This document shows positions 1-48,003 of a stretch of 64,000 nucleotides of DNA, piece by piece. Under the pieces are notes generated by a model. The model was given only the letters and a program-made list of their open reading frames with translations. It did not search any database and was not told the DNA's origin. The position numbers and the translations under genes are program-made. The DNA comes from a bacterium. GTDB taxonomy: Bacteria; UBP6; UBA1177. The DNA lies in assembly GCA_017405875.1 (NCBI GenBank), contig JAFQZM010000005.1:1-64000 (forward strand). Reading direction: 5' to 3'. How positions within the stretch are numbered: the first letter of the stretch is position 1; each line of letters starts with the position of its first letter.

Positions 1-275
1 AACGGTGTTTTGATTGTGTTTTCGTTGTAGCGCAGATCAAGACACTCGACTTTTTCAGGTGAGTCTGAATCGGAATCAGCATCCGATGTTTCATCAGAAT
101 TATCAACAATTTCAGTTTCTCGAGTGTCGGAGTCATCATCCATAATTTCTGAATCCTGCGTGTCTGTGTCAACATCAGGAATAGAATCGGAATCATTTGA
201 AGAGTTGGATGTGGAGCAGGAAAGAAAGAAAAAGAACCCTACAAACACCAAAAACAATCTCAACTGGGTTTGCAT
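1..275 (-). CDS. Partial lipoprotein with Asp/Ser-rich linker
   Basis: This is the N-terminal part of a gene that runs off the left edge; about 91 residues are visible. The ATG at 275 follows a GGAGGT site by six bases. The product has a hydrophobic signal segment and a lipobox ending FLSC, so it is probably lipidated and exported. The next roughly 50 residues are rich in Asp, Ser, Thr and Glu, like a flexible spacer. The linker start (SNSSNDSD) matches that of the mini-lipoprotein at 14519-14677 and resembles the acidic linker of the DUF1566 lipoprotein at 5241-7817. The C-terminal domain, and so the function, is outside the window. Confidence 0.75.
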   Translation of the reverse strand, partial: MQTQLRLFLVFVGFFFFLSCSTSNSSNDSDSIPDVDTDTQDSEIMDDDSDTRETEIVDNSDETSDADSDSDSPEKVECLDLRYNENTIKTP

Positions 276-313
276 GTGCACCTCCATGAACATAATTTAA
301 AATCTCGCATGGT

Positions 314-341
314 ATTTTATTTTTTATGCAAGAGGAGTCAA
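314..341 (-). promoter_or_regulatory. Sigma-70-like promoter for the partial lipoprotein
   Basis: Read on the minus strand, TTGACT (336-341) is separated by 16 bases from TAAAAT (314-319), about 40 bases upstream of the lipoprotein start at 275. The rest of 276-426 is AT-rich and no gene is seen. Confidence 0.5.
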
Positions 342-426
342 GATGAAAGATTGACAAAATTATCCAAAATTTTCAACGCATTAAGTTTATAGAACTTGCT
401 AATTTAGCAGACTATTTTTAAAGATT

Positions 427-2676
427 TCAGGATAAACAGAGTTTTCTGTTTTTAAAATCGATTTTTATTTTTCCGCCGTTTTTCGATTTTCCGAAAAGGA
501 TCTCGTCAAGAAGAAGATTTTCGAGCTCTTTGTCCACTACTCTCGCAGTCTCTCTTGCACCGAAAACTGTTGAAAAACCGAGTTCAGCCAAGTGTGCGAC
601 AGCGGATTCGGTGATTGAAAGCTCAATATTTTTGGAAACGAGTCTTTTTGCAAGCGCACAGACGTTCTTTTTAACTATTTTCTTAACGATTTCAGGCGTC
701 ATGCGTGAGAAGTAAACAATGTGGTCAAGCCTGTTCAGAAACTCAGGCGAAAACGTATTTTTTACAGCTTCTTTGAAAGCGGAAGTGTTTTCCGAATGGG
801 ATTCAAAGCCTACCTGTTTTTTTGCGGCGTCTTTGCTTCCGGCATTGGAAGTCATTATAATTATTACGTTTTTAAAGTTAGCCTTACGTCCTGCGTTGTC
901 TGTCAGAGTCGCATAATCCATGATCTGAAGAAGTGAATTGTAAATGTCTGCATGGGCTTTTTCGATTTCATCAAGAAGAAGAACCGAAGTCGGCTGCTTT
1001 CTTATCGCTTCGGTGAGAAGTCCGCCCTCTTCATATCCGACATATCCGGGAGGCGCGCCGAAAAGTTTGGAAACTGTGTGTTTTTCCTGATATTCGCTCA
1101 TGTCGAAGCGGATAAGCGGCATCTCCATTTTGTCGGCTAAAACGCGGGCAAGCTCAGTTTTGCCTACTCCGGTCGAACCAACAAAAAGGAACGACGCGAC
1201 CGGTTTTTCGGGATTTTTGAAACCTGCATAGCTTTTCTTTATTGCTCTCACAATTTCGGAAATCGCCTCATTCTGACCGAAAATCTCAGTTGAAAGAGCC
1301 GTCTCGAGCCCTTTGAGCTGCTTCATTCCGTCAGAATTTACAGCTGTTTCCTTCTTTCCAGTGAGAAATGCGGTGACTTTTTCAATATGCTCCGGCTTTA
1401 CAACTTTTATTTTCTTAGTCTGCATGTTGCAAGCCGCTCCAGCCTCATCGATCAGATCTATCGCCTTGTCCGGCAGAAAACGGTCGGTAATGTAAAGCGA
1501 AGAAAGTTCTATCGCCGCGTGAAGAGCTTCGTCACTGTATTTAACCTTGTGAAAAGATTCATATTTTTCAGCAAGACTCTTTAAAATCAGGAAAGTTTCT
1601 TCTTTTGAAGGCTCGGGAACGTTTACCTTCTGGAATCTTCTCGAAAGAGCCGAATCCTTCTCAAAAAACTTTCTGTATTCTGCTGTGGTAGTCGCACCGA
1701 TAAATTTTATCGATCCTTCTTCAAGAACCGGTTTCAGGATATCAGCCGCATCGATCGACGAATTTCCGGCACTGCCTGCCCCGACAAGATTGTGGATTTC
1801 ATCAATAAAAACAATGACTTTCTCTTCCTGTTTCAAAGCCGAGACGAGTTTGTTCATCGTCCGCTCCAAATCGCCCATAAAGCGGCATTCACTGATAAGG
1901 CGCGAAATGTTGAGCGAAAGAATGCGGTAACCTGAAAGCTGTTTCGGCACTTCATTTCCGGCAATTCTCTGTGCGAGGCCTTCGGTTATTGCCGTCTTGC
2001 CGACTCCGGGATCTCCGACATGGACCGGATTGCATTTTTTGCGCCTGAGAAGGATCTGGATCGTCCGCCCGATGATGTCATCACGACCGATTATCGGATC
2101 AAGTTCTCCCGAACGGGCTTTTTCGGTAAGATCGACCGTGAAAAGTTCAAGCGCGGAAGGCGATTTTTCAGCATCTTCAGGAGTTGTTTCAACATTTTCA
2201 GGCACTTCCGGCTTTTCAGTTTCGGAAAATCCGCCGTGTGCGATCGCGCTCAGAAGGTCGTACCTTTTGATATTGTTCGCCTTGAGGAGATTTGAGGAAT
2301 ACGATTTCTCACCCAAGTCGTAGATCGCGACGATCAGATCGGAGACTTCGACGCGCGTCCGCTGCGAGCCGAAAACGTTGTTTGCCGCATCAAGAAGGCA
2401 CATATTCAGATATTCCGAGGGAACGACACGCCCGTTTTTCGGGCTTTTGGGAACATATTTTTCGAGATACTCCCTGACATTCTGCCGCATTTCAGAAACA
2501 TCGACATCGAAATGTTCGAGAAGTCCGACCACTTTCCTGTTAAAAAGCAGCTGAAACAGGAGATGTTCGGGAGTCACAAACTCGTCTTTGTTGTCGGTTG
2601 CGTCTTCGATCGCCATGCTGAAAATTTTTGCAACTTCAAACGAAAACGGCAGCGACATATTATCTTTTTCCGCCAT
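427..2676 (-). CDS. clpA: ATP-dependent Clp protease ATP-binding subunit ClpA
   Basis: This is the AAA+ unfoldase that feeds substrates to ClpP in the cytoplasm. The 749-residue product has an N-terminal Clp repeat domain (about 10-150). It then has a first AAA module with Walker A GDPGVGKT and Walker B VIFIDEIH, and a second with GSTGVGKT and LLLDEIEKAH. There is no long ClpB-type middle coiled coil, and the length is right for ClpA. The ATG at 2676 has a GGAG site inside the end of clpS, only two bases downstream of the clpS stop, so the two are probably translationally coupled. clpP is not in the window. Confidence 0.95.
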   Translation of the reverse strand: MAEKDNMSLPFSFEVAKIFSMAIEDATDNKDEFVTPEHLLFQLLFNRKVVGLLEHFDVDVSEMRQNVREYLEKYVPKSPKNGRVVPSEYLNMCLLDAANNVFGSQRTRVEVSDLIVAIYDLGEKSYSSNLLKANNIKRYDLLSAIAHGGFSETEKPEVPENVETTPEDAEKSPSALELFTVDLTEKARSGELDPIIGRDDIIGRTIQILLRRKKCNPVHVGDPGVGKTAITEGLAQRIAGNEVPKQLSGYRILSLNISRLISECRFMGDLERTMNKLVSALKQEEKVIVFIDEIHNLVGAGSAGNSSIDAADILKPVLEEGSIKFIGATTTAEYRKFFEKDSALSRRFQKVNVPEPSKEETFLILKSLAEKYESFHKVKYSDEALHAAIELSSLYITDRFLPDKAIDLIDEAGAACNMQTKKIKVVKPEHIEKVTAFLTGKKETAVNSDGMKQLKGLETALSTEIFGQNEAISEIVRAIKKSYAGFKNPEKPVASFLFVGSTGVGKTELARVLADKMEMPLIRFDMSEYQEKHTVSKLFGAPPGYVGYEEGGLLTEAIRKQPTSVLLLDEIEKAHADIYNSLLQIMDYATLTDNAGRKANFKNVIIIMTSNAGSKDAAKKQVGFESHSENTSAFKEAVKNTFSPEFLNRLDHIVYFSRMTPEIVKKIVKKNVCALAKRLVSKNIELSITESAVAHLAELGFSTVFGARETARVVDKELENLLLDEILFGKSKNGGKIKIDFKNRKLCLS

Positions 2677-2678
2677 AG

Positions 2679-2993
2679 TTACTCCTTTTCAACAATACAT
2701 TTAAGCGGGAAACCTTTCTTTTTAGCCGCTTCATCGACCTGCGAGATCTTGGAAACGGCGATGTCATAAACATAAACTCCGGCAACTCCCCGCCCCTGCT
2801 TGTGGACTGCGAGCATGATTTTACGGGCCTCGGCCTCACTTTTTCCGAAAATGTCGATAAGAACATCGACCACAAATTCCATTGTCGTGTAGTTGTCGTT
2901 CAGCATCACGACTTTGTAAAGTTCCGGCTCTTTCACCATAATTTTTGATCCGGTAAGAATTTTTGACGATTTTTTAGTTGAAAGATCAGACAT
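2679..2993 (-). CDS. clpS: ATP-dependent Clp protease adaptor ClpS
   Basis: ClpS delivers N-degron substrates (those starting with Leu, Phe, Trp or Tyr) to ClpA. The 104-residue protein has a disordered N-terminal tail followed by the family core: YKVVMLNDNYTTMEFVVDVL, then HKQGRGVAGVY and a C-terminal helix. The ATG at 2993 is preferred over the in-frame GTG nine bases upstream because it lies five bases after a GGGTG site and matches normal ClpS length. It sits directly upstream of clpA and downstream of the START-like gene, in an apparent four-gene operon that starts with the M18 aminopeptidase. Confidence 0.93.
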   Translation of the reverse strand: MSDLSTKKSSKILTGSKIMVKEPELYKVVMLNDNYTTMEFVVDVLIDIFGKSEAEARKIMLAVHKQGRGVAGVYVYDIAVSKISQVDEAAKKKGFPLKCIVEKE

Positions 2994-3035
2994 TACGATC
3001 ACCCAAAAGTGCGTATTGTTGGAAAATTCCTTTGG

Positions 3036-3683
3036 TTACTTTTTCGACGCGGCGCGGCGTTTCATGATTTCTTTGTGAAGCGTCCACAAAGTGTCAGGAA
3101 CAGCCTGCCTTGAAGCGATATTCTTGACGAACACAGGAAGCGAACCGCCCGGATCGTTGTAAATGTAGTAATCGACTTTGATCTTGTCGGGCTCGACCTG
3201 TGTGAATTTGTAGAACCCTTTATTCTCCTTGACGCGGACGAACTTGTCTGTCACAGGATACTTCGGATCGTCGAAAGGAACCCACGTTATCGAGACCGAG
3301 CCGTCTTTGTTGTCGACTCTGCACGATTTGACATAGTAGTCGCGGTCGGTCGCCACCGGAGCCGATATCCTGTTATACGACCAATCGCACCTGTCGTTCT
3401 TTTTGAGGACGTCGGAATAACTGATATACTTGAAGATCTCGGGATGTTTCAGCCTGTCGAACATGATATCGACAGCTTCCTGGATAGTGCCCTGGTATGT
3501 CACCGTAGCCCTAACTTCCTTGATATCCGAACCTTCATGTTCGCGTTCGTAGAGTTTAAGTCCGTTGTCCTCACTGACGAATTCCCATTTTGCCTCTTTT
3601 TTTTCGCTTTTTTTAGCAGAATCATCGGCAGCAAAAACGGGAAAAATCAAGAAAATAAAAGAAAGAATGAAGACTATACGCAT
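3036..3683 (-). CDS. START-domain-like exported protein
   Basis: The 215-residue product has a signal peptide (about 1-18, ending at an AxA-like FAAD) and then one START-like fold. The segment WEFVSEDNGLKLYEREHEGS, the later DRDYYVKSC and the region rich in alternating aromatics are typical of bacterial START-like proteins, which bind hydrophobic ligands in a deep pocket. It is probably periplasmic. The start lies nine bases after the aminopeptidase stop, so it is probably co-transcribed. The ligand cannot be deduced, and the link with the clpSA genes downstream may be only positional. Confidence 0.75.
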   Translation of the reverse strand: MRIVFILSFIFLIFPVFAADDSAKKSEKKEAKWEFVSEDNGLKLYEREHEGSDIKEVRATVTYQGTIQEAVDIMFDRLKHPEIFKYISYSDVLKKNDRCDWSYNRISAPVATDRDYYVKSCRVDNKDGSVSITWVPFDDPKYPVTDKFVRVKENKGFYKFTQVEPDKIKVDYYIYNDPGGSLPVFVKNIASRQAVPDTLWTLHKEIMKRRAASKK

Positions 3684-39938: not shown

Positions 39939-40793
39939 TCATTTCGGTTGATTTAATTCCTGCAATTTACGGCGCAAAACATCCTTGTCTGGCAATTCCA
40001 ACTAATATTGTGCTATCATCATCGGTGAAAGTGTGCGGCTCATAGCGTATTCAACCACTTCATCATTTTTGGATGCGCAGAGCAACAGTCCGACACTTGG
40101 ATTCTCATCAGGTTTCTTAACCTGCCTATCCAATCCCTCTAAATAAAAATCCATCTTGGAAACATATTCCGGTTTGAATTTTCCTTCTTTCAGTTCTATT
40201 GCCACAAGACAGTGAAGACTGCGATGAAAAAATAGCAGGTCAATATGATAGTCATCACCTCCTACCTGTATCGGATATTCCTCGCCAACAAAGGTAAAAT
40301 CTTTACCAAGTTCAATAATAAAGTTGCGCATTCCCTTTACCAGCGCCTTTCGAAAGTCGTTTTCCTGAAATGTTTCCGGCAGATTAAGAAATTCTACGAC
40401 ATAGGAATCGAGAAACGGGTTTTGTTGCGAATGCAGCACTTCCGGCAGCAGATTGCCCTTGGAAAGCATGTAACGCTCGTAATAACTACTGTCCATCTGC
40501 CGTTCAAGTTGACGAGAACTATAACGTTCTTTAACGGCAAGTTGCATATAAAATTCGCGTTCTTCATCGCTTTTACTTCCTGACATTATAAGCAGATGAT
40601 TTGTCCAACTCAATTGTGTCAGCAGTGCTGACACTTTTTCATTTCCGGCATAAATTTCATAAAACTGTTTCATACGGTAGAGTCCTCTGCGATTAAAACC
40701 TTTTATGCCCGGAAAAGATTGTTGAATATATTTAGAAAGGGAATCAATGTAGGCATCACCATAAGATGTCTCTTTTGATTTCCAAGATCGCAA
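39939..40793 (-). pseudogene. DUF1016 (YhcG-type) PD-(D/E)xK nuclease remnant
   Basis: The frame encodes most of a DUF1016 protein: GFNRRGLYRMKQFYEIYAG, TNHLLIMSG, a helical middle, and the nuclease core IDLLFFH ... AIELKEGKF with the catalytic Asp and ExK. It is broken at both ends. There is no ATG and the usual first 50-60 residues are missing. A TAG (40002-40004) interrupts the normal end, after which the family tail continues in frame (LELPDKDVLRRKLQELNQPK) to a TGA at 39939. The residue replaced by TAG is normally Gln in this position, so a CAG to TAG change is likely. It is flanked by 18-base direct repeats. Confidence 0.8.
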
Positions 40794-40811
40794 TTTTGCA
40801 TCTTGTTCCCC

Positions 40812-40829
40812 TTCCCCGATAAATTCAGG
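40812..40829. repeat. 18-bp direct repeat, right of DUF1016 remnant
   Basis: Partner of 39915-39932. It is followed by the 16-mer shared with 37582-37597 and a GCGGGC/GCCCGC hairpin (40844-40860). The sequence from there to 40937 holds no gene. Confidence 0.7.
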
Positions 40830-40937
40830 CTGTTTGTCGGAGCGCGGGCGGCTCGCCCGCAGGGTTTTTGAGGTTTAGATTTCGCAGGATTTAAGGTTAG
40901 ATAAAAGGCGGGAAATGGGCGCAAAGGTTTCGTGCAA

Positions 40938-41939
40938 TTAGAATTGGTTGCGAGTTTCATCCTCTGGCGGCACAGGAATATATACCATTTCTAGTGGAAT
41001 TATTTTTTTGTATTTATCACTCAATTTATCGTAGTAGCGGAGAATCAACTCAACAAGTTCGGCTCCATTTATGCCCTTGATAATCGGAACACTTTCTAGA
41101 TACTTCTTTGCGTTCGGTGTGTAATCAGACAATGTAACAAACAATCCATAATCGCCTTCGCGCATTGCGCCTTTTAGAGATTGAATTGTTGATTCTTGAA
41201 CCTTGCCATCTCCGCTCTTTACTTGCACTAGAATACGAGGCGGGAATTCATCCTTGTAGGCTATAATATCAATACCTCTATCTCCCCCATGTTGAGAAAC
41301 TTTAGCATTGTATCCCATAGCTTCGAGAAGATCTTTTATAAATGGTTCAAGATCATACCCCTTCAGTTTGCGACTCAATTCTTTTAAAATAAAATCCTTG
41401 GTACTTTCTTTAATATCTTCTGCAGTTGTTCCTACGCTTTCATCTTCAGAATCGTCATCAACGCTATGTCTAAAACCATTGTCTAGTGCTGACAAATATT
41501 CATCTGCATAATTTTTTACCATAAAAAAAGACATTATCGAACCAATTTCATATAAAGCTCCCTGCGAAAAAGATGTGCGAGGAATATGCTTTAACCATTT
41601 CACCTTTCTTCTATGCACATATTTCACATCAGAATTTTCAAAATAGTAGTCACTTTCAATAATGCCAATATTAATCATGCGGTCTGTTTTAGACGGAAAA
41701 ACTACACAATCTCCGATTTTGACATCATACAGAAATCTAAAAAGCTTTCCGGCAGCCGAAGGCACCGATCCTTTCTTGGTATCAGGATAGGTTTCAATAA
41801 AATGAGCCTTAAAAGCCTCTCGAGTACCCTCAATTTTTGTAAGATCTCCAAATTTTTTCGATCCAACAGCTATAATATTTTTTGAAAGAAACAAATTGTC
41901 GTCATACGTATGAACTCCCCAAACCCTTCTTTCTTCCAT
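40938..41939 (-). CDS. Mrr-like restriction endonuclease
   Basis: The 333-residue protein ends with an Mrr-type PD-(D/E)xK nuclease domain (about 195-310). It shows LLEAMGYNAKVSQHGGDRGID, then ILVQVKSG with the catalytic Asp and QxK, and KGAMREGDYGLFVTLSDYT. Such domains cut modified or foreign DNA. The N-terminal part (about 1-150, starting WGVHTYDDNLFLSKN) is a separate, probably sequence-reading domain. The ATG at 41939 follows GGAG. It lies 38 bases downstream of the type IIG gene, so the two may form one restriction operon. Confidence 0.82.
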   Translation of the reverse strand: MEERRVWGVHTYDDNLFLSKNIIAVGSKKFGDLTKIEGTREAFKAHFIETYPDTKKGSVPSAAGKLFRFLYDVKIGDCVVFPSKTDRMINIGIIESDYYFENSDVKYVHRRKVKWLKHIPRTSFSQGALYEIGSIMSFFMVKNYADEYLSALDNGFRHSVDDDSEDESVGTTAEDIKESTKDFILKELSRKLKGYDLEPFIKDLLEAMGYNAKVSQHGGDRGIDIIAYKDEFPPRILVQVKSGDGKVQESTIQSLKGAMREGDYGLFVTLSDYTPNAKKYLESVPIIKGINGAELVELILRYYDKLSDKYKKIIPLEMVYIPVPPEDETRNQF

Positions 41940-41977
41940 AATAATTTCTCCTTAAAAGCTGTGTTTTAGCATCACTA

Positions 41978-44389
41978 TTATTTCAAAAACCCGTATTCAT
42001 AGACTTTTTCGGCGATTTTTGCGGCGAGGACTTTCATTTTTGCACGTAAATCCGTTATCAAAGCGGTATATTTTTCATCTTCGGAACTTGCATTCATTTT
42101 GCCGTTCTTTTCGCCCTGAAAATATTTTCTGATATCGTAAAAAGCCGCGTCTGGATTGGCGTTTTTCTGCGCATGATAATATTTCCAAAGTTCGCGCCCG
42201 GCATCGAAAACCGCTTGTGCTTCCTCGGAAAAGACCATTTTTCCTGAAAATTTATCGGTTTCAATCTCAAAAAGAGAGCCTTGAACATCTTCGCCATTTT
42301 CCTTAATTTTCCCTGCAATAAAATCGCTCATAAAGTGGAATTTGAAAGCTTTTTTGCAGCCGATTTTCTGTTCTGTGAACGGAATCCAGTGATTTTCAGC
42401 ATGCTCTGATGAAATATTATTTTTTCCGTGAAACAACGTAAAAACGAGACAGTCGGACTGAAATTCAAAATCGGTTTTCCAGCCGTCATTCGGATACAAA
42501 AACTGATCATTGTGATTAAGCCAAGTGTGTTCTATACAATGGCGAACCGCAAAATAAATACAAATTTCTAAAATATTTTTTGTAGTTACTTGAGTGCCGC
42601 GCGGAACAGGCAACTGTGATTTGTCATTGACTATGTAATTAGTACTGTTGTGTTGGAAATCCGCCCCGTTTGCATACATATAACCAATATTTTTTTCATT
42701 TGTCCGGTTTCTGGTTTCAATTATCCAGTCATTGATCGAACAAAAATCTTGCATCACAGCAAATTTTCTCTTCTGTAAAAAAGAACCATTTTCATCGAAA
42801 ATATCTGCTTGTGTTTCGGAAAAAATCTCTTTTTCAGCTGTATCCCAAACAAAAAAACCTATTGGAAACCGCCCTTTTACATTATCGAAAGTCCAAGCCG
42901 GAACAGCTAACATTTTTAAAAGTTTAGCCTGAAAAACATTTCTGAATCTTTCAAAATTCGGGGCTTGAAGAATTTTTAATGTTGAAAAATTCGCCAATAT
43001 GCAGTTGGAAATTTCCGAATAAATTCGGATAAAAAATTGTGCAAACAACTCCCTTCCTGCAATTCCGATTGTTTCGAGATATTGTTTATAGGTTTTTTGT
43101 TTTACAGCGACATCTGTTCTGTTTTGCCCAGTCCCGTTTATTGTTCTTGCGTTCGCCGCTTCCGCATACGGCGGATTGATATAGATCACGAGTTTTTTTC
43201 TTTTCTCCTCGTCGTTGACGATTTTTCTCAATTCTTCCGGCAACTTATCAAAATCGTCGTTCAAAAAGTCAAACTGAAAAATGTGGTTTTCAAACATATT
43301 CCAGCCGTTGTGAACGCGGTCAACCATGACATCAACATCGGCTTTATCAAGTGTCGAAGCCCAGACATTGCGGTAATTCGTTAGACCGTTGAGCAGGTTC
43401 CCGGTTCCTGCGCAGCAATCCCAAATATAGTATTCATCCTGCCAGTTTTCGCCCAAAACAGCGGCAAGATATTCCTGCGACTTCTCAACCCAGATTTTCG
43501 GCGTAAAAAACGAGCCTTTTCTTTCTCGGATATCCTGCGGAACAAGCAGATCGCGCCTGCCAATGATGTAATCCCAGTATTCTTCTTTCGGCGGACGCTT
43601 ATAGATCGCCCAAAATTCCCGATGAGCCTTCTGGTCATCCTTGAATCCGACTTCTTTTACAGTAAAAATCCCTGATTCATCAATGGTTTTAGCCAATTCG
43701 TATTTTGTGTTTTTCAGCACGACGAAAAGATTGTCTTTAAGAGAGTTGTTGTTTTCCGAAAGCAAGTCAGCCAAAAAGAAATCTGCTGAAATTATTCCGG
43801 TTTTATTTACGGTTTCCCAATCTATCGCGATAGAATCTTTGACCTTTGCAAGCCACTTCTGAAAAACTGCCGGAAAATTGTTTTTCGTAACATTTACTTT
43901 GCCGCCGCCGCCTTTTTCCAGCTTTTTTATGAATTTTTTAAGTTCCTTGGAATCGGTGTCGTAGTAGTAAAGAGTTTTGTTTTCTTCAAGCGTTTTTTTG
44001 CAGAGTTCATAAAGCCGCTTAAATTCAGGTGTTTCATGATTTGACGGCGCGACATTCCAGTTAAAATCGTTTCTGTTGAACACTTCCTGAATGTTGTAAT
44101 ATTCAATGAAAGCAAATTTTTCACCGTCAAACGCTCCGATATAAGGCGGCGGCATATAGCCTTTGTCTTTTTGATTTCCTATTGTCAGAATCAGTTGGAC
44201 AAAACTTTTTAAGATATCGCTCTTTCCTTTTTTTGCTTCAGCCCAAAGCACGGAAGAATACTCTGGAACGCCTTGAGGCAACACCACAACAAAATCGATA
44301 TTTCCCAATACCGTGCAAGAATAATCGCCGAAAAAATCTTCGCGAACCGCGTTTTTAAGAGCTTCTTCTCGTAAATTCAGGTAATTCAT
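41978..44389 (-). CDS. Type IIG-like restriction-modification enzyme
   Basis: The 803-residue protein combines a putative N-terminal nuclease domain (VLWAEAKKGK as a possible ExK core) with an N6-adenine methyltransferase. SAM motif I is DCCAGTGNLLNG and the catalytic motif is INPPYAEA. The C-terminal third is presumably the target-recognition domain. This is the single-chain layout of Eco57I-like type IIG systems, where one protein both cuts and methylates. The ATG at 44389 follows GAGGAG. Its upstream region contains the left copy of the direct repeat flanking the ORF6N gene. Confidence 0.85.
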   Translation of the reverse strand: MNYLNLREEALKNAVREDFFGDYSCTVLGNIDFVVVLPQGVPEYSSVLWAEAKKGKSDILKSFVQLILTIGNQKDKGYMPPPYIGAFDGEKFAFIEYYNIQEVFNRNDFNWNVAPSNHETPEFKRLYELCKKTLEENKTLYYYDTDSKELKKFIKKLEKGGGGKVNVTKNNFPAVFQKWLAKVKDSIAIDWETVNKTGIISADFFLADLLSENNNSLKDNLFVVLKNTKYELAKTIDESGIFTVKEVGFKDDQKAHREFWAIYKRPPKEEYWDYIIGRRDLLVPQDIRERKGSFFTPKIWVEKSQEYLAAVLGENWQDEYYIWDCCAGTGNLLNGLTNYRNVWASTLDKADVDVMVDRVHNGWNMFENHIFQFDFLNDDFDKLPEELRKIVNDEEKRKKLVIYINPPYAEAANARTINGTGQNRTDVAVKQKTYKQYLETIGIAGRELFAQFFIRIYSEISNCILANFSTLKILQAPNFERFRNVFQAKLLKMLAVPAWTFDNVKGRFPIGFFVWDTAEKEIFSETQADIFDENGSFLQKRKFAVMQDFCSINDWIIETRNRTNEKNIGYMYANGADFQHNSTNYIVNDKSQLPVPRGTQVTTKNILEICIYFAVRHCIEHTWLNHNDQFLYPNDGWKTDFEFQSDCLVFTLFHGKNNISSEHAENHWIPFTEQKIGCKKAFKFHFMSDFIAGKIKENGEDVQGSLFEIETDKFSGKMVFSEEAQAVFDAGRELWKYYHAQKNANPDAAFYDIRKYFQGEKNGKMNASSEDEKYTALITDLRAKMKVLAAKIAEKVYEYGFLK

Positions 44390-44430
44390 TGAATCTCCTC
44401 TTTTTTGCCGCCAACCAAACTGTTCCGCAC

Positions 44431-44500
44431 TATACCCAAACCACCGCTCTTTTCAAGTAATAACTACTTAATTTTATTGAATAATTTTCTAATTTTAATC
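44431..44500. repeat. About 70-bp direct repeat, left of ORF6N gene
   Basis: It matches 45807-45874 with only a few differences. CGCTCTTTTCAAGTAATAACT and a long TTAATTTTATTGAATAA block are identical. The two copies bracket the ORF6N gene. Confidence 0.85.
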
Positions 44501-44587
44501 TATGCAGAGTTAAATAAAAACGCTTGACTTTGAGGCGTGTTTTTAAATACTACTTTATAATTTAAAGATTGACATTAGATTTTTACA

Positions 44588-44615
44588 TTGACATTGTTGC
44601 GTGAATATTTATTAT
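44588..44615 (+). promoter_or_regulatory. Promoter of the ORF6N gene
   Basis: Consensus TTGACA (44588-44593), a 16-base spacer and TATTAT (44610-44615), 32 bases before the ATG at 44648. A second TTGACA starts at 44569. Confidence 0.6.
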
Positions 44616-44647
44616 CTGTTTGCAAACAGTTTATTTGGTAAAACGAT

Positions 44648-45730
44648 ATGGAAAATGATATTGTGATTCACAACGAAACAGACTTGCAGTCAAAGATTTA
44701 CACCATTCGAGGCATGAAGGTGATGCTCGACTCTGATCTGGCTGAAATTTATGGTTATTCAGTCAAGGCTTTCAATCAGCAAGTCAAGAATAACATTGAG
44801 AAATTTGACGAAGATTTTCGCTTTCAGCTGACAAAAGATGAGTATCATTCAATCCTAAGGTGCAAAAATTGCACCTTAGAAAATCAGGATGAGATTCTAA
44901 GGTCAAAAATTTTGACCTTAGAAAACAAAGAATCTGAAGTTATTGAAGAAGGTCAAAACTTGAAGTCAAAATTTTTGACTTCAAGTTGGGGAGGTGTGAG
45001 AAAACTTCCATACGCTTTCACAGAACAAGGAATTTACATGCTGATGACCGTTCTCAAAGGTGATTTGGCTACCCGACAAAGCAAAATATTGATCCGACTT
45101 TTCAAAGGAATGAAGGATTTTATCGTCGATAGCGGAAATCTTATCGGACAGAGTGAAGGTGCAAAACTCGCAATTCAGACTTCGCAAAACACGAAAGATA
45201 TTGCTATAATAAAGGAAACTATGGTTACAAAAGCCGAATTAACCGATTTTATGAAACTTTTCGACACGGGAATCAGAAACGAAGAAATACTGATTCTTGA
45301 CGGTGAGCCGTTCAAAGCTGATTTTGCGTATCAGAAAATCTATGAAACTGCAGAGCATAGCATCATTGTAATCGACGATTATTTGGGATTGAAAACTCTG
45401 CGCCATCTCGCAAGTGCGAAAAGCGGGGTTCAAATCACGATAATCAGTGACAACAAAGGAAAGAATCCATTGAAACTCACCGAATACAACGATTTTTTGA
45501 AGGAATATCCTGAAGTAAAAATCAAATTTATCGCTTCTCTTGGCAGAATCCACGACAGATATATCGCAATTGATTTCGGAACAAAAAACGAAAAACTCTA
45601 TCACTGCGGCGCATCCAGCAAAGACGCAGGGCGCAGAATCACAACAATCTTAGAAATCAAAGGAATCGCCGATTACAGGACAACACTTGAATCACTGCTT
45701 TCAAACAGAGAACTGAAACTGAATTTGTGA
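44648..45730 (+). CDS. ORF6N-domain protein with PLD-like C-terminus
   Basis: The 360-residue protein begins with an ORF6N DNA-binding domain (about 10-140: TIRGMKVMLDSDLAEIYGY, VKAFNQQVKNN, LPYAFTEQGIYML), known from phage and accessory regions. An insertion between its two halves repeats the pattern LRSKxLTLE, and each repeat is encoded by a DNA palindrome. The C-terminal domain (about 205-350) resembles a single phospholipase-D-like unit with IHDRYIAID (HxRxxxxD in place of HxKxxxxD) and GASSKDAG. It may bind or cut DNA. It has no strong ribosome site. It is flanked by direct repeats and is likely a mobile single-gene cassette. Confidence 0.8.
   Translation: MENDIVIHNETDLQSKIYTIRGMKVMLDSDLAEIYGYSVKAFNQQVKNNIEKFDEDFRFQLTKDEYHSILRCKNCTLENQDEILRSKILTLENKESEVIEEGQNLKSKFLTSSWGGVRKLPYAFTEQGIYMLMTVLKGDLATRQSKILIRLFKGMKDFIVDSGNLIGQSEGAKLAIQTSQNTKDIAIIKETMVTKAELTDFMKLFDTGIRNEEILILDGEPFKADFAYQKIYETAEHSIIVIDDYLGLKTLRHLASAKSGVQITIISDNKGKNPLKLTEYNDFLKEYPEVKIKFIASLGRIHDRYIAIDFGTKNEKLYHCGASSKDAGRRITTILEIKGIADYRTTLESLLSNRELKLNL
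44853..44988. repeat. Three consecutive coding palindromes in the ORF6N gene
   Basis: Palindrome 1 is 44855-44879 (arms CTAAGGTGCAA, 3-base loop). Palindrome 2 is 44895-44923 (arms TTCTAAGGTCAAAA, 1-base centre). Palindrome 3 is 44957-44987 (arms ending CTTGAAGTCAAAA, 1-base centre). The centres are 42 and 63 bases apart, both multiples of three. Arm sequences differ between palindromes but remain complementary within each. Confidence 0.9.
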
Positions 45731-45806
45731 TTTTCCTGAAAAATGCAAGTTAAAAAATGCGGCATTATCACCGTAAATCCTTGTTTTTTCCGACATTTCC
45801 TCCACC

Positions 45807-45874
45807 ATACCCCAAACCCCCGCTCTTTTCAAGTAATAACTGTTTAATTTTATTGAATAATTTTCTAATTTTTA
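45807..45874. repeat. About 70-bp direct repeat, right of ORF6N gene
   Basis: Partner of 44431-44500 in the same orientation. The rest of 45731-45944 is AT-rich and shows no gene. Confidence 0.85.
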
Positions 45875-45944
45875 TCCAAGAAGAATCAAAGAAAACGATG
45901 CGTTTTTGCGATTGGTTTTAGCGCGGAATTTAATTCGGAATATC

Positions 45945-46367
45945 TTAAAGTATAGAGAGCTGTTCCAAAGCTTTATCGATACTAATTGCCGGAACTTTTG
46001 ATTTAGTGAAATCTCTAATGTTTTCTGTGACGATATAATCCAATGCAGCATTTTCGGCGCATTTCATCTGCAAACCGTCTTCGAGGTCGAAGAAAGCCGG
46101 ATCATTCAGCACTTCCAAGAAATCATCCTGTTCTTCCGCAATCACTTGGAAGTTGGAAACAATCAGAAGTAAGAACTCTCTTCTGTCTTCAACAGAATAA
46201 AATTTTCTCGTTATGTAAAAAATATCTGTTAGAGAATGAGCAGAAACAAAACCGTTCAAATTACCAAGCAGGCACTCTTTTACAAGCAGGAATGCTTTCT
46301 CGTGGAATGAATTCGAGGGAATCAGATAGTCAAGAAGAATATTCGTGTCAAAGAAAAAATTTTTCAT
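45945..46367 (-). CDS. PIN-domain toxin (VapC-like)
   Basis: The 140-residue PIN ribonuclease begins NFFFDTNILLDYLIP with the first catalytic Asp. It has SAHSLTDIFYI, then DLEDGLQMKCA with the central acidic pair and YIVTENIRDF near the end. It overlaps the Phd-like antitoxin gene by four bases (ATGA). It differs in sequence from the PIN toxin at 14674-15078. Confidence 0.82.
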   Translation of the reverse strand: MKNFFFDTNILLDYLIPSNSFHEKAFLLVKECLLGNLNGFVSAHSLTDIFYITRKFYSVEDRREFLLLIVSNFQVIAEEQDDFLEVLNDPAFFDLEDGLQMKCAENAALDYIVTENIRDFTKSKVPAISIDKALEQLSIL

Positions 46368-46726
46368 GCTCCATACTTCTCATCAAGATATTCGAGGAAT
46401 TCTTTTTTTGCATCGAAATCTGCGGGAACTTGCAAACTTCCTTTAAATTTCTCAAACAACGCCATCGCTTCTTCTTTTGACATGTGCTCCATGGCACGAA
46501 GTTCTTCAAGAGTTTTCGTGACTGTGCGCCCCTGTTTCGTCTCTTCCACCGAGCGTTCAAGTTTCGCAATATAAGCTGATCTGCTGAGCTCGTTGTATTC
46601 AGCTTCAGAAAGCAGAACAACATTCTGATTCTTCGGGCGCGAGATCAAAATGACTTCACCGCCGAAAGCCTTGGCACAGACATCTTTAAAATTCGTTTTC
46701 ACATCGACTGCCCTTAACGCGATCAT
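46364..46726 (-). CDS. Phd/YefM-like antitoxin
   Basis: The 120-residue protein starts at the ATG at 46726 after a GGAGG site. An upstream in-frame start adds residues with no ribosome site. The N-terminal part (VDVKTNFKDVCAKAFGGEVILISRPKNQNVVLLSEAEYNEL in pattern) is the Phd/YefM DNA-binding fold. The C-terminal half, with EELRAMEHMSKEEAMALFEKF, should bind the PIN toxin and is longer than in typical Phd proteins. Confidence 0.82.
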   Translation of the reverse strand: MIALRAVDVKTNFKDVCAKAFGGEVILISRPKNQNVVLLSEAEYNELSRSAYIAKLERSVEETKQGRTVTKTLEELRAMEHMSKEEAMALFEKFKGSLQVPADFDAKKEFLEYLDEKYGA

Positions 46727-46904
46727 TTTAGCCTCCAAAAAGATACGTTTTTCAGCATCTATTTTAGCATCTAAAAAAGTATTTGTCAATGCAGCCTCCG
46801 TCAAACAATCGATCAAGCAACAAAAATATTCTAAAAATTAATTTTCAAAAGTCAAATTATTTTCAAATTTCTGATTCAAATACAACATTTTAATTTGATA
46901 TTTA

Positions 46905-46985
46905 TTTGAAAATATTTATTATTGGATTACAACAAGTTTATTTAGAGAAACGAGATGGAAAATGAAATTGGAAATTACAATTTGT
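46905..46985 (+). pseudogene. 5' remnant of an ORF6N gene
   Basis: The gene-poor stretch 46727-47118 contains this block. It resembles the -10 region, leader and first codons of the ORF6N gene at 44648. TTTATTATTGG, AGTTTATTT and ATGGAAAATGAAATTG align with TTTATTATCTG, AGTTTATTT and ATGGAAAATGATATTG. The frame stops after about ten codons (MENEIGNYNL). The remaining 46727-46904 sequence is AT-rich with nothing recognised. Confidence 0.6.
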
Positions 46986-47033
46986 GACATCCAATCCTGA
47001 TAAAATGGGATTTCAATAAAAAACCTCATTTTC

Positions 47034-47092
47034 TTGCCGGTATCGGCAAAAAAGTTGCTTTTTGAGCTTTTTTGATAAAAATCTTGCCGATA
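47034..47092. promoter_or_regulatory. TTGCCGATA half-sites upstream of second fic gene
   Basis: A perfect palindrome TTGCCG-GTAT-CGGCAA (47034-47049) and an additional half-site TTGCCGATA (47084-47092) lie 27-85 bases before the fic start. They look like an operator for the N-terminal helix-turn-helix of the encoded protein. Confidence 0.55.
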
Positions 47093-47118
47093 GAGGCTCA
47101 TTTTTCAAAGAGGTGCCT

Positions 47119-48003
47119 ATGGAATATATTTCAGTTGCGGAATTTGCCGAAAAATTCGGAATCAGTGAGCGGACAGCGCGAAACTACTGTGCGACAGGAA
47201 AAATAGAAGGAGCTTTTCTTACCGGAAAAACGTGGAATATCCCTGCCGATGCAGCTTTACCTAAACGCGCAAAAACAATAAAGGTTTCTCCGCTTCTTGC
47301 CGTGCTCAGAGATCAGAAAGAGTCGAAACTCAAAGGTGGCATTTATCACCGCACGCAGATAGATTTCACCTATAATTCGAATCACATCGAGGGAAGCCGT
47401 CTCACGAAGGAACAGACGCGCTTTATTTATGAGACCGACACTCTCGGTTTTGCCTCAGCTAACACGCGAATTGACGATATTATGGAAACCGTCAATCATT
47501 TCAGGTGCATAGATTATGTTATCGACCACGCCACAGACAAAATCACCGAGTCGCACATAAAACAGCTTCATCTCATTCTTAAAAACAATACTTCAGACAG
47601 TCAGAAGTCGTGGTTTGCAGTCGGCGACTACAAGCGGATCGCGAACGAGGTAGGTTTGGAAGAGACGGTCGCGCCGGATGATGTGGCACGCCACATCAAA
47701 GCACTGCTTGCCGGTTACTATGCGAAAAAGAGCCCCGATTTTAACGATATTCTCGATTTTCATGTCCGTTTTGAAAGGATCCACCCTTTTCAGGACGGAA
47801 ACGGGCGTGTCGGCAGACTGCTCATTTTCTGGCAGTGCCTTCAGGCTGGGATCGTGCCGTTTGTCATCACGGAAGAACTGCGTCTTTACTATTACCGCGG
47901 TCTTCAGAACTGGGGAAAAACTAATGCGTATTTGCGCGACACCTGCCTTTCAGCACAGGATAACTATAAGATTTTGTTAGATTATTTTAAGATCAAGTAC
48001 TGA
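47119..48003 (+). CDS. Fic-family protein with N-terminal helix-turn-helix
   Basis: The 294-residue product starts at the ATG at 47119 after GAGGTG. An upstream in-frame start runs through the operator region. Residues about 1-55 form a helix-turn-helix (EYISVAEFAEKFGISERTAR). The Fic domain has the inhibitory motif SNHIEGS and the catalytic HPFQDGNGRVGRL. This gives a self-inhibited AMP-transferase-type enzyme with its own DNA-binding part, differently arranged from the Fic protein at 37641-38702. Confidence 0.88.
   Translation: MEYISVAEFAEKFGISERTARNYCATGKIEGAFLTGKTWNIPADAALPKRAKTIKVSPLLAVLRDQKESKLKGGIYHRTQIDFTYNSNHIEGSRLTKEQTRFIYETDTLGFASANTRIDDIMETVNHFRCIDYVIDHATDKITESHIKQLHLILKNNTSDSQKSWFAVGDYKRIANEVGLEETVAPDDVARHIKALLAGYYAKKSPDFNDILDFHVRFERIHPFQDGNGRVGRLLIFWQCLQAGIVPFVITEELRLYYYRGLQNWGKTNAYLRDTCLSAQDNYKILLDYFKIKY

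Follow-up and report, generated by a model that had tools for sequence, protein, structure and literature searches.

The window analysed here, a stretch of bacterial DNA of 64 kb, carries on its forward strand (44648..45730, +) an ORF6N gene of 360 amino acids, the product of which matches the PF10543 profile (E 8e-32) with 109.8 bits against a gathering cut-off of 27.8 and is thus a member of the ORF6N family. From the N-terminus, the protein consists of an ORF6N DNA-binding domain, a variable segment coded by palindromes, a coiled linker, and a PLD-like domain (HDRYIAID...HCGASSKDAG, 45270..45727, +) of a type also found at the C-terminus of RhuM proteins. The profile match falls into two halves, and the insert between them holds three palindromes. 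Palindrome 1 (44855..44879, CTAAGGTGCAA-AAA-TTGCACCTTAG) has arms of 11 and a loop of 3 bases and codes for LRCKNCTL; palindrome 2 (44895..44923, TTCTAAGGTCAAAA-A-TTTTGACCTTAGAA), with arms of 14 and a single-base loop, codes for ILRSKILTLE; and palindrome 3 (44957..44987, AACTTGAAGTCAAAA-T-TTTTGACTTCAAGTT), with arms of 15 and again a loop of 1, codes for NLKSKFLTSS. It is followed by the linker TSSWGGVRKL (44980..45010, +), one among several exchangeable linker types. The initial annotation had placed three near-perfect palindromes here, with arms of 11, 14 and about 15 bases and with centres spaced by 42 and then 63 bases, which preserves the frame; they are present as described, the spacing holds, and all three are perfect. 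Their arms had also been said to differ from one another while each remains self-complementary, which is correct and was understated: the differences are not limited to the outer flanks, as the inner core is also altered on both sides (TGC..GCA, TCA..TGA), and the amino acids follow (C..C, S..L). Perfect palindromes with arms of at least 10 and a loop of at most 5 bases number four in the 64-kb window, three of which are the ORF6N ones. When codons were redrawn 200,000 times per palindrome from the codon usage of the window, under an unchanged peptide, palindromes such as these arose with P = 1e-5 for the first and P < 5e-6 for both the second and the third. Codon bias is thereby ruled out as their cause, in agreement with the earlier claim that ordinary coding drift cannot account for the matched arms. 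A further perfect palindrome of 14 bp, CTGTTTGCAAACAG (44616..44629), lies 18 bp upstream of the ORF6N start codon; it has no sequence relation to the coding palindromes of the window and is a possible separate operator.

An AlphaFold2 model of the window protein, built with 45 homologues, predicts two helix-turn-helix (HTH) helices, at residues 28-35 and 39-48. Residues of about 70-112, which the palindromes encode, are inserted at low confidence between strands 58-60 and 122-124, and the C-terminal domain is modelled with confidence. The best matches in a Foldseek search are TrmB-type regulators, in which a DNA-binding domain is combined with a PLD-like domain, and the PLD-family enzymes NucT, Nuc and Zucchini. 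The model thus suggests a likeness to the archaeal regulators TrmB and TrmBL2, which have the same order of a DNA-binding N-terminal and a PLD-like C-terminal domain, but the TM-scores over the whole chain are low and the likeness is one of fold. The PLD motif, HxK/R(x4)D...G-S, is present as HDRYIAID...GASSKD, with catalysis putative; the PLDc_2 match of this C-terminus is weak (E 0.019; PF13091, 15.3 bits, below the cut-off of 27). The initial annotation's suggestion of a hypervariable target-recognition segment is plausible in that the palindromes encode residues inserted, at low confidence, between two beta strands of the DNA-binding domain and are swapped as cassettes between near-identical genes; a role of the segment in DNA recognition is putative.

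Upstream in the window lies an open frame on the reverse strand (40002..40874, -) for a DUF1016/YhcG-type PDDEXK nuclease, which is apparently truncated at its N-terminus, the PF17761 match (40473-40781) beginning at profile position 38. It contains a coding palindrome of its own (40616..40634, GTGTCAGCAGTGCTGACAC as read on the forward strand), which codes for VSALLTQ directly before LSW. The two genes belong to an island (40002-48003) that also includes an Mrr endonuclease, a Fic protein, a protein of 803 amino acids that lacks a Pfam match, and a small gene pair that by eye has the appearance of a PIN toxin and its antitoxin.

Genomes of the window's genus hold 3-18 ORF6N matches each, and almost all ORF6N genes that encode the peptide [RK][SC][QK]x-x-T ([RK][SC][QK][IFN]x-T) have palindromes, one to four per gene. 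These palindromes are odd, with arms of typically 12-17 bp and the centre at the fourth codon of this peptide. They are also found in Fibrobacter, Treponema, Bacteroidales, Lachnospiraceae, Selenomonas, other Bacteroidota and Firmicutes, and several viral contigs; in an even draw of Bacteroidota genomes, all six parsed ORF6N genes (6/6) have them at zero or one mismatch. The core occurs in matched versions, namely TCACAA.TTGTGA (S..V), TCGCAA.TTGCGA (S..A), TCAAAA.TTTTGA (S..L), TCGAAA.TTTCGA (S..S) and TGCAAA.TTTGCA (C..C), such that the serine codon, through a third position that is synonymous, foretells the amino acid on the opposite arm. A second ORF6N subfamily (ELVANCDRF/ELVTNCDRF) reads the same DNA palindrome in another frame: GGTCGCAAATTGCGACC, common to the RSQIAT and LVANCDR subfamilies, is read as AGG TCG CAA ATT GCG ACC in one and as GTC GCA AAT TGC GAC in the other. 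Protein-level selection alone would hardly produce one palindrome in two reading frames. The core pattern GGTCRMAAWTTKYGACC occurs 0-11 times per genome in 15 genomes of the genus, and its reversed control is absent from all of them; together with the genome background this rules out chance or low complexity. By a rough comparison among the matches listed, about half of the copies of the ORF6N-type core lie outside ORF6N genes. In the 250 bp upstream of 107 ORF6N genes palindromes are not enriched (0.38 per kb against 0.40 downstream), with few candidates for a promoter copy, such as L198 and L037, and the palindromes are therefore not a promoter operator in the classical form. Tandem ORF6N domains, in neighbouring or fused frames and each with its own palindrome, occur at five loci (L011, L013, L016, L057, L089). 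Many ORF6N matches are at contig ends, suggesting that assembly breaks at repeats.

The ORF6N arms diversify by matched change, including changes that alter the amino acid. When 168 distinct instances, anchored on the peptide only, were compared at k = 2-14 from the centre, 1908 positions were paired, against 1324 +/- 20 with the right halves exchanged between genes; 153/168 have at most two mismatches, the exceptions being mostly mis-anchored. Among 42 close gene pairs, taken as non-overlapping nearest neighbours to limit the effect of relatedness, 93 positions have changed, of which 72 changed on both sides and remained complementary, 17 changed on one side, and four changed on both sides and are unpaired. 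Independence of the two sides predicts 15.5 double changes; these pairs were drawn from instances with at most three mismatches, and decayed sites are thus undercounted in this comparison. The central 1-5 bases of the palindrome are free of the constraint. In homologues, then, the segment is palindromic, varies in copy number and changes in matched fashion, as the initial annotation had proposed to check, and the proposal stood up both to a search for homologues that lack complementarity and to trivial codon bias.

Relatives of the window gene reveal how the palindromes are replaced. In the sister-genome gene L081, palindrome 1 is identical; palindrome 2 has its inner pair altered on both sides, from TCA..TGA to TCG..CGA; and in the place of palindrome 3 and its linker there is another palindrome-linker cassette (ILRSKILTLEQGKYSKY), after which near-identity resumes. 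The near-identical gene pairs L039/L072 and L122/L146 likewise differ only in palindrome and linker. Linker types found after ORF6N palindromes include TSSWGG, TANxSxxSR, TLN.GRGSNIKY, TLEQGKYSKY and TSK.ENRGGRQY. Since the upstream DNA-binding portions of these pairs are near-identical and their palindromes differ, specificity would sit in the swapped cassette or elsewhere.

Palindromes of this kind, regarded at first as a matter of one ORF6N gene, are not confined to that gene or even to ORF6N. When 790 kb of the sister genome G010 were scanned without bias towards any gene group (arms of at least 10, loop of at most 5), 24 perfect palindromes came to light, of which seven are in ORF6N genes and most others in BRO-N and DUF1016 genes or in a few dispersed families. 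One DUF1016/YhcG nuclease gene of this genome has five palindromes with one mismatch allowed, and one BRO-N gene and, with one mismatch, one RhuM gene also carry them. As RhuM, BRO-N and DUF1016 genes thus surfaced without being sought, an ORF6N-only phenomenon is ruled out. Targeted searches bore out palindromes particular to each family, which code for TVANFATVQ, TVRNFRTVQ, VVANFATTA, TIEDFSIVQ and TIKKFFIVQ in RhuM; QLYEKIVQL, ELVTNCNQL and ELSEKIGQL in BRO-N; DHFAEVGKMV, DHFIDVNKMV and DHFREVTKMV in DinD-like antirepressors; and IGNALRSQLNW, IASAVRTQLNW and IVNACVHNLTW in DUF1016. In each group (ORF6N, RhuM, BRO-N, DinD-like, DUF1016) the palindrome is of a type particular to that group and its position is fixed, beside or within the N-terminal domain, with one to five copies per gene across the groups. 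The left and right halves are coupled in the same manner as in ORF6N, the half-swap test giving z 7.3 for RhuM (14 true instances, hand-listed) and z 8.2 for DUF1016 (18 instances, noncoding copies included); the DUF1016 set was hand-assembled from palindromes already found, and its z speaks to coupling within palindromes, not to prevalence. GC-rich genes of Burkholderia carry the same DUF1016 palindrome, as does plasmid DNA of other bacteria that bears no annotation. Palindromes of the ORF6N, RhuM and DUF1016 types also lie between genes, within mosaic repeats and often where genes converge; such copies occur in the window's genus, in Fibrobacter, on plasmids and, 3' of yhcG, in E. coli.

The presence of such palindromes in E. 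coli K-12 rules out that they are an artefact of metagenome-assembled genomes. K-12 yhcG (L401:5328-6455) has three in-frame coding palindromes, 39 bp apart, and K-12 dinD (L400:1761-2585) has one at nt 174-205. The yhcG alleles fetched from a pool of 5,426 complete E. coli genomes contain three, two or one palindromes. Palindrome 1 reads AATTCGCC..GGCGAATT in most fetched alleles of the K-12 type, K-12 itself having one unpaired base, and AATTGTGC..GCACAATT in strains of the IAI39 type, within which palindrome 2 is either CGCC..GGCG or CTCC..GGAG. A noncoding palindrome, GAATTCTGC..GCAGAATC or GAATTCTCC..GGAGAATC, lies 10-15 bp past the yhcG stop codon, between convergent genes; its matched strain differences indicate that matched change occurs without coding constraint. 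Blocks exchanged between strains span yhcG nt 240-400 and dinD nt 1-270 in the fetched alleles, and yhcG palindromes are deleted in O157:H7, O111 and strain 97-3250. Two independent transposase-associated disruptions of yhcG stop inside palindrome 3, with junctions at gene positions 385 and 406 (L411, L415, L417), and the truncated allele of positions 1-406 recurs among the E. coli genomes listed.

The two-fold symmetric constraint on the coding palindromes acts at the level of DNA, because the arms change in matched fashion, the mismatches have no RNA-wobble bias, one palindrome is used in two reading frames and the noncoding copy past yhcG changes likewise. In the genes that bear palindromes, this constraint dictates part of the protein sequence. 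Furthermore, the palindrome and its linker, or a neighbouring domain, are exchanged as blocks between close relatives. The internal binding site proposed in the initial annotation is a live candidate explanation for these properties: as the likeliest single reading, the palindromes are quite possibly, at somewhat less than an even chance as judged from sequence, two-fold symmetric binding sites for the gene's own product, that is, internal operators or docking sites inside an exchangeable wing or linker segment. Binding by the own product is the simplest reason why DNA-binding families that are unrelated should all retain, across phyla, a family-specific palindrome within the gene itself. The cognate protein would bind the palindrome as a dimer, and occupancy might limit transcription of the own gene as a roadblock or mark that gene. 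Paralogues, with as many as 18 ORF6N matches in one genome, would diversify their sites and so reduce cross-talk; and a gene with its site and recognition segment in one cassette would bring along all that it needs as it passes from phage to host and back. Promoter copies are rare and palindromes are swapped between near-identical upstream halves, so that the mechanism may be any of roadblock autoregulation, marking of the own gene and the initiation of cassette exchange.

Operators that are autoregulatory or intragenic, as in dimeric regulators, phage repressors and toxin-antitoxin systems, resemble these palindromes in being two-fold symmetric, group-specific and diversified among paralogues, and in belonging to proteins with a DNA-binding N-terminus. 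A two-fold symmetric constraint on DNA and a family-specific type of site, as expected of self-bound operators, are both found here, but copies in the own promoter are not enriched: their rarity among the 107 ORF6N genes speaks against a cognate site, and the candidate site instead lies in the stretch that encodes the DNA-binding domain or linker, where it dictates amino acids. The different palindromes that accompany near-identical upstream DNA-binding portions in L039/L072 and L122/L146 also count against it. DNA binding by DUF1016 is, moreover, putative, and the dispersed intergenic copies call for an additional explanation as relics, decoys or further targets. A more specific proposition, conceivable though on the doubtful side, is that the palindrome both encodes the wing or linker that contacts DNA and serves as the target of that same protein, so that site and recogniser co-evolve and are swapped as one cassette. 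Were this so, it would constitute a self-addressing gene strategy that several unrelated phage-type families have adopted independently and that persists in K-12 yhcG and dinD.

An unlikely alternative to a site for the own product is that the palindromes are hotspots of recombination or breakage where paralogues and alleles trade specificity cassettes and domains, symmetry being needed by the exchange machinery. Candidates for that machinery would be a site-specific recombinase, the processing of cruciforms or hairpins, and the nuclease domain (PLD or PDDEXK) of the protein itself. The cassettes swapped between ORF6N genes with near-identical flanks, the exchanged yhcG block (nt 240-400), the palindrome deletions in O157:H7, O111 and strain 97-3250, and the two disruptions ending inside palindrome 3 are all consistent with this notion, as are the PLD-like C-terminus common to ORF6N and RhuM proteins, the many ORF6N matches at contig ends, and intergenic mosaics in which similarity often begins or ends at a palindrome. 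However, the exchanged dinD block reaches nt 270, beyond the palindrome at 174-205, no nuclease domain is recognised in BRO-N and DinD-like genes, and transposable elements may favour palindromes for unrelated reasons. A common exchange machine would also have no need of a separate palindrome for each group.

It is improbable that the palindromes are mobile repeats, akin to Rickettsia palindromic elements or REP sequences, that insert selfishly in frame into permissive loops and spread. Their copy number does vary, and the intergenic ORF6N-, RhuM- and DUF1016-type copies, often between convergent genes, indicate that a repeat-like component remains. REP/BIME and other small palindromic repeats are similarly dispersed, often between convergent genes and in mosaics. 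REP elements are not known to have a counterpart to the coding, position-fixed component with matched evolution. Rickettsia elements share with the present palindromes an occurrence inside intact open reading frames as well as in intergenic copies, but they enter many kinds of gene with a unit of about 100-150 nt (PMC4316617), whereas the units here are 25-35 bp at a fixed place in five DNA-binding gene groups. They also lose repeat identity (PMC6649704), whereas here the arms remain matched rather than decaying (72/93 changed positions). The multiplying element of Rickettsia type suggested in the initial annotation is thus disfavoured by a position fixed in each family and retained there phylum-wide, by palindromes particular to each family with arms matched across phyla, and by the use of one palindrome in two frames of a single family.

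The palindromes could instead be perfected passively, by template switching during replication in which each arm may serve as template for its partner (quasi-palindrome correction), with no function involved, to which a similarly low probability is given. Such a process would account for matched and sometimes multi-base changes and for perfect noncoding copies, and it has been discussed for the coding palindromes of nematomorph mitochondria (PMC6649704). Template switching should, however, affect any gene, and the long coding palindromes in 790 kb are nearly confined to these gene groups, the exception being a dispersed family described below; group specificity, fixed place and the retention of one palindrome by bacteria as different as Burkholderia, E. 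coli and those of the rumen would be left unexplained. Least probable, and very much so, is a hairpin that works in the mRNA through RNase processing, pausing or translation control. The central 1-5 bases spared by the constraint are as expected of a hairpin loop, but the lack of a G-U bias among the mismatches of ORF6N palindromes (GT+TG 28 vs AC+CA 34) argues against it, as does the copy past the yhcG stop codon between convergent genes. An integron attC-type site was considered since one arm type reads AAC...GTT, and dropped since other arm types do not.

The nearest published phenomena are the Rickettsia elements and the nematomorph coding palindromes. The latter are likewise perfect inverted repeats kept in coding sequence with both arms coding, but they are scattered over respiratory genes, are gained and lost, and have no proposed partner (PMC6649704), whereas palindromes of the window type occupy fixed sites and are restricted to phage-type DNA-binding proteins of bacteria and viruses. 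In the open-access literature there is no description of palindromes in ORF6N, RhuM, DUF1016, KilA-N, yhcG or dinD genes; preprints and subscription papers are outside this scope, and novelty is therefore provisional. In ORF6N, RhuM, BRO-N and DUF1016/YhcG genes, several widespread groups with no assigned function, and likewise in dinD, an SOS gene, a signal at the DNA level overrides protein sequence. Each such gene seems to spell out a candidate for its own DNA target, providing these orphan families with a first concrete molecular handle. The resulting covariation of amino acids stems from DNA and not from protein contacts, and may mislead coevolution-based prediction of structure and contacts for these families. 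As K-12 has three sites in yhcG, one after it and one in dinD, and as strains vary naturally at these loci, a laboratory strain is available in which to decide the question.

Two further arrangements were observed. A RhuM-PLD gene (L251:1030 and 2210) lies between direct repeats that each open with an ORF6N-type palindrome, in the manner of a cassette. A separate dispersed palindrome, GAGACGTTTC(A/C)(T/G)GAAACGTCTC, codes for VETFxETS in unrelated proteins and is also found between genes (G010 C1:180291, 216782, 322263 and 621384; C4:42111; L032:2852). Its hosts include the linker of an M23-type peptidase, a disordered protein and a restriction-modification-like protein, and this family is closer to an element of the Rickettsia type.
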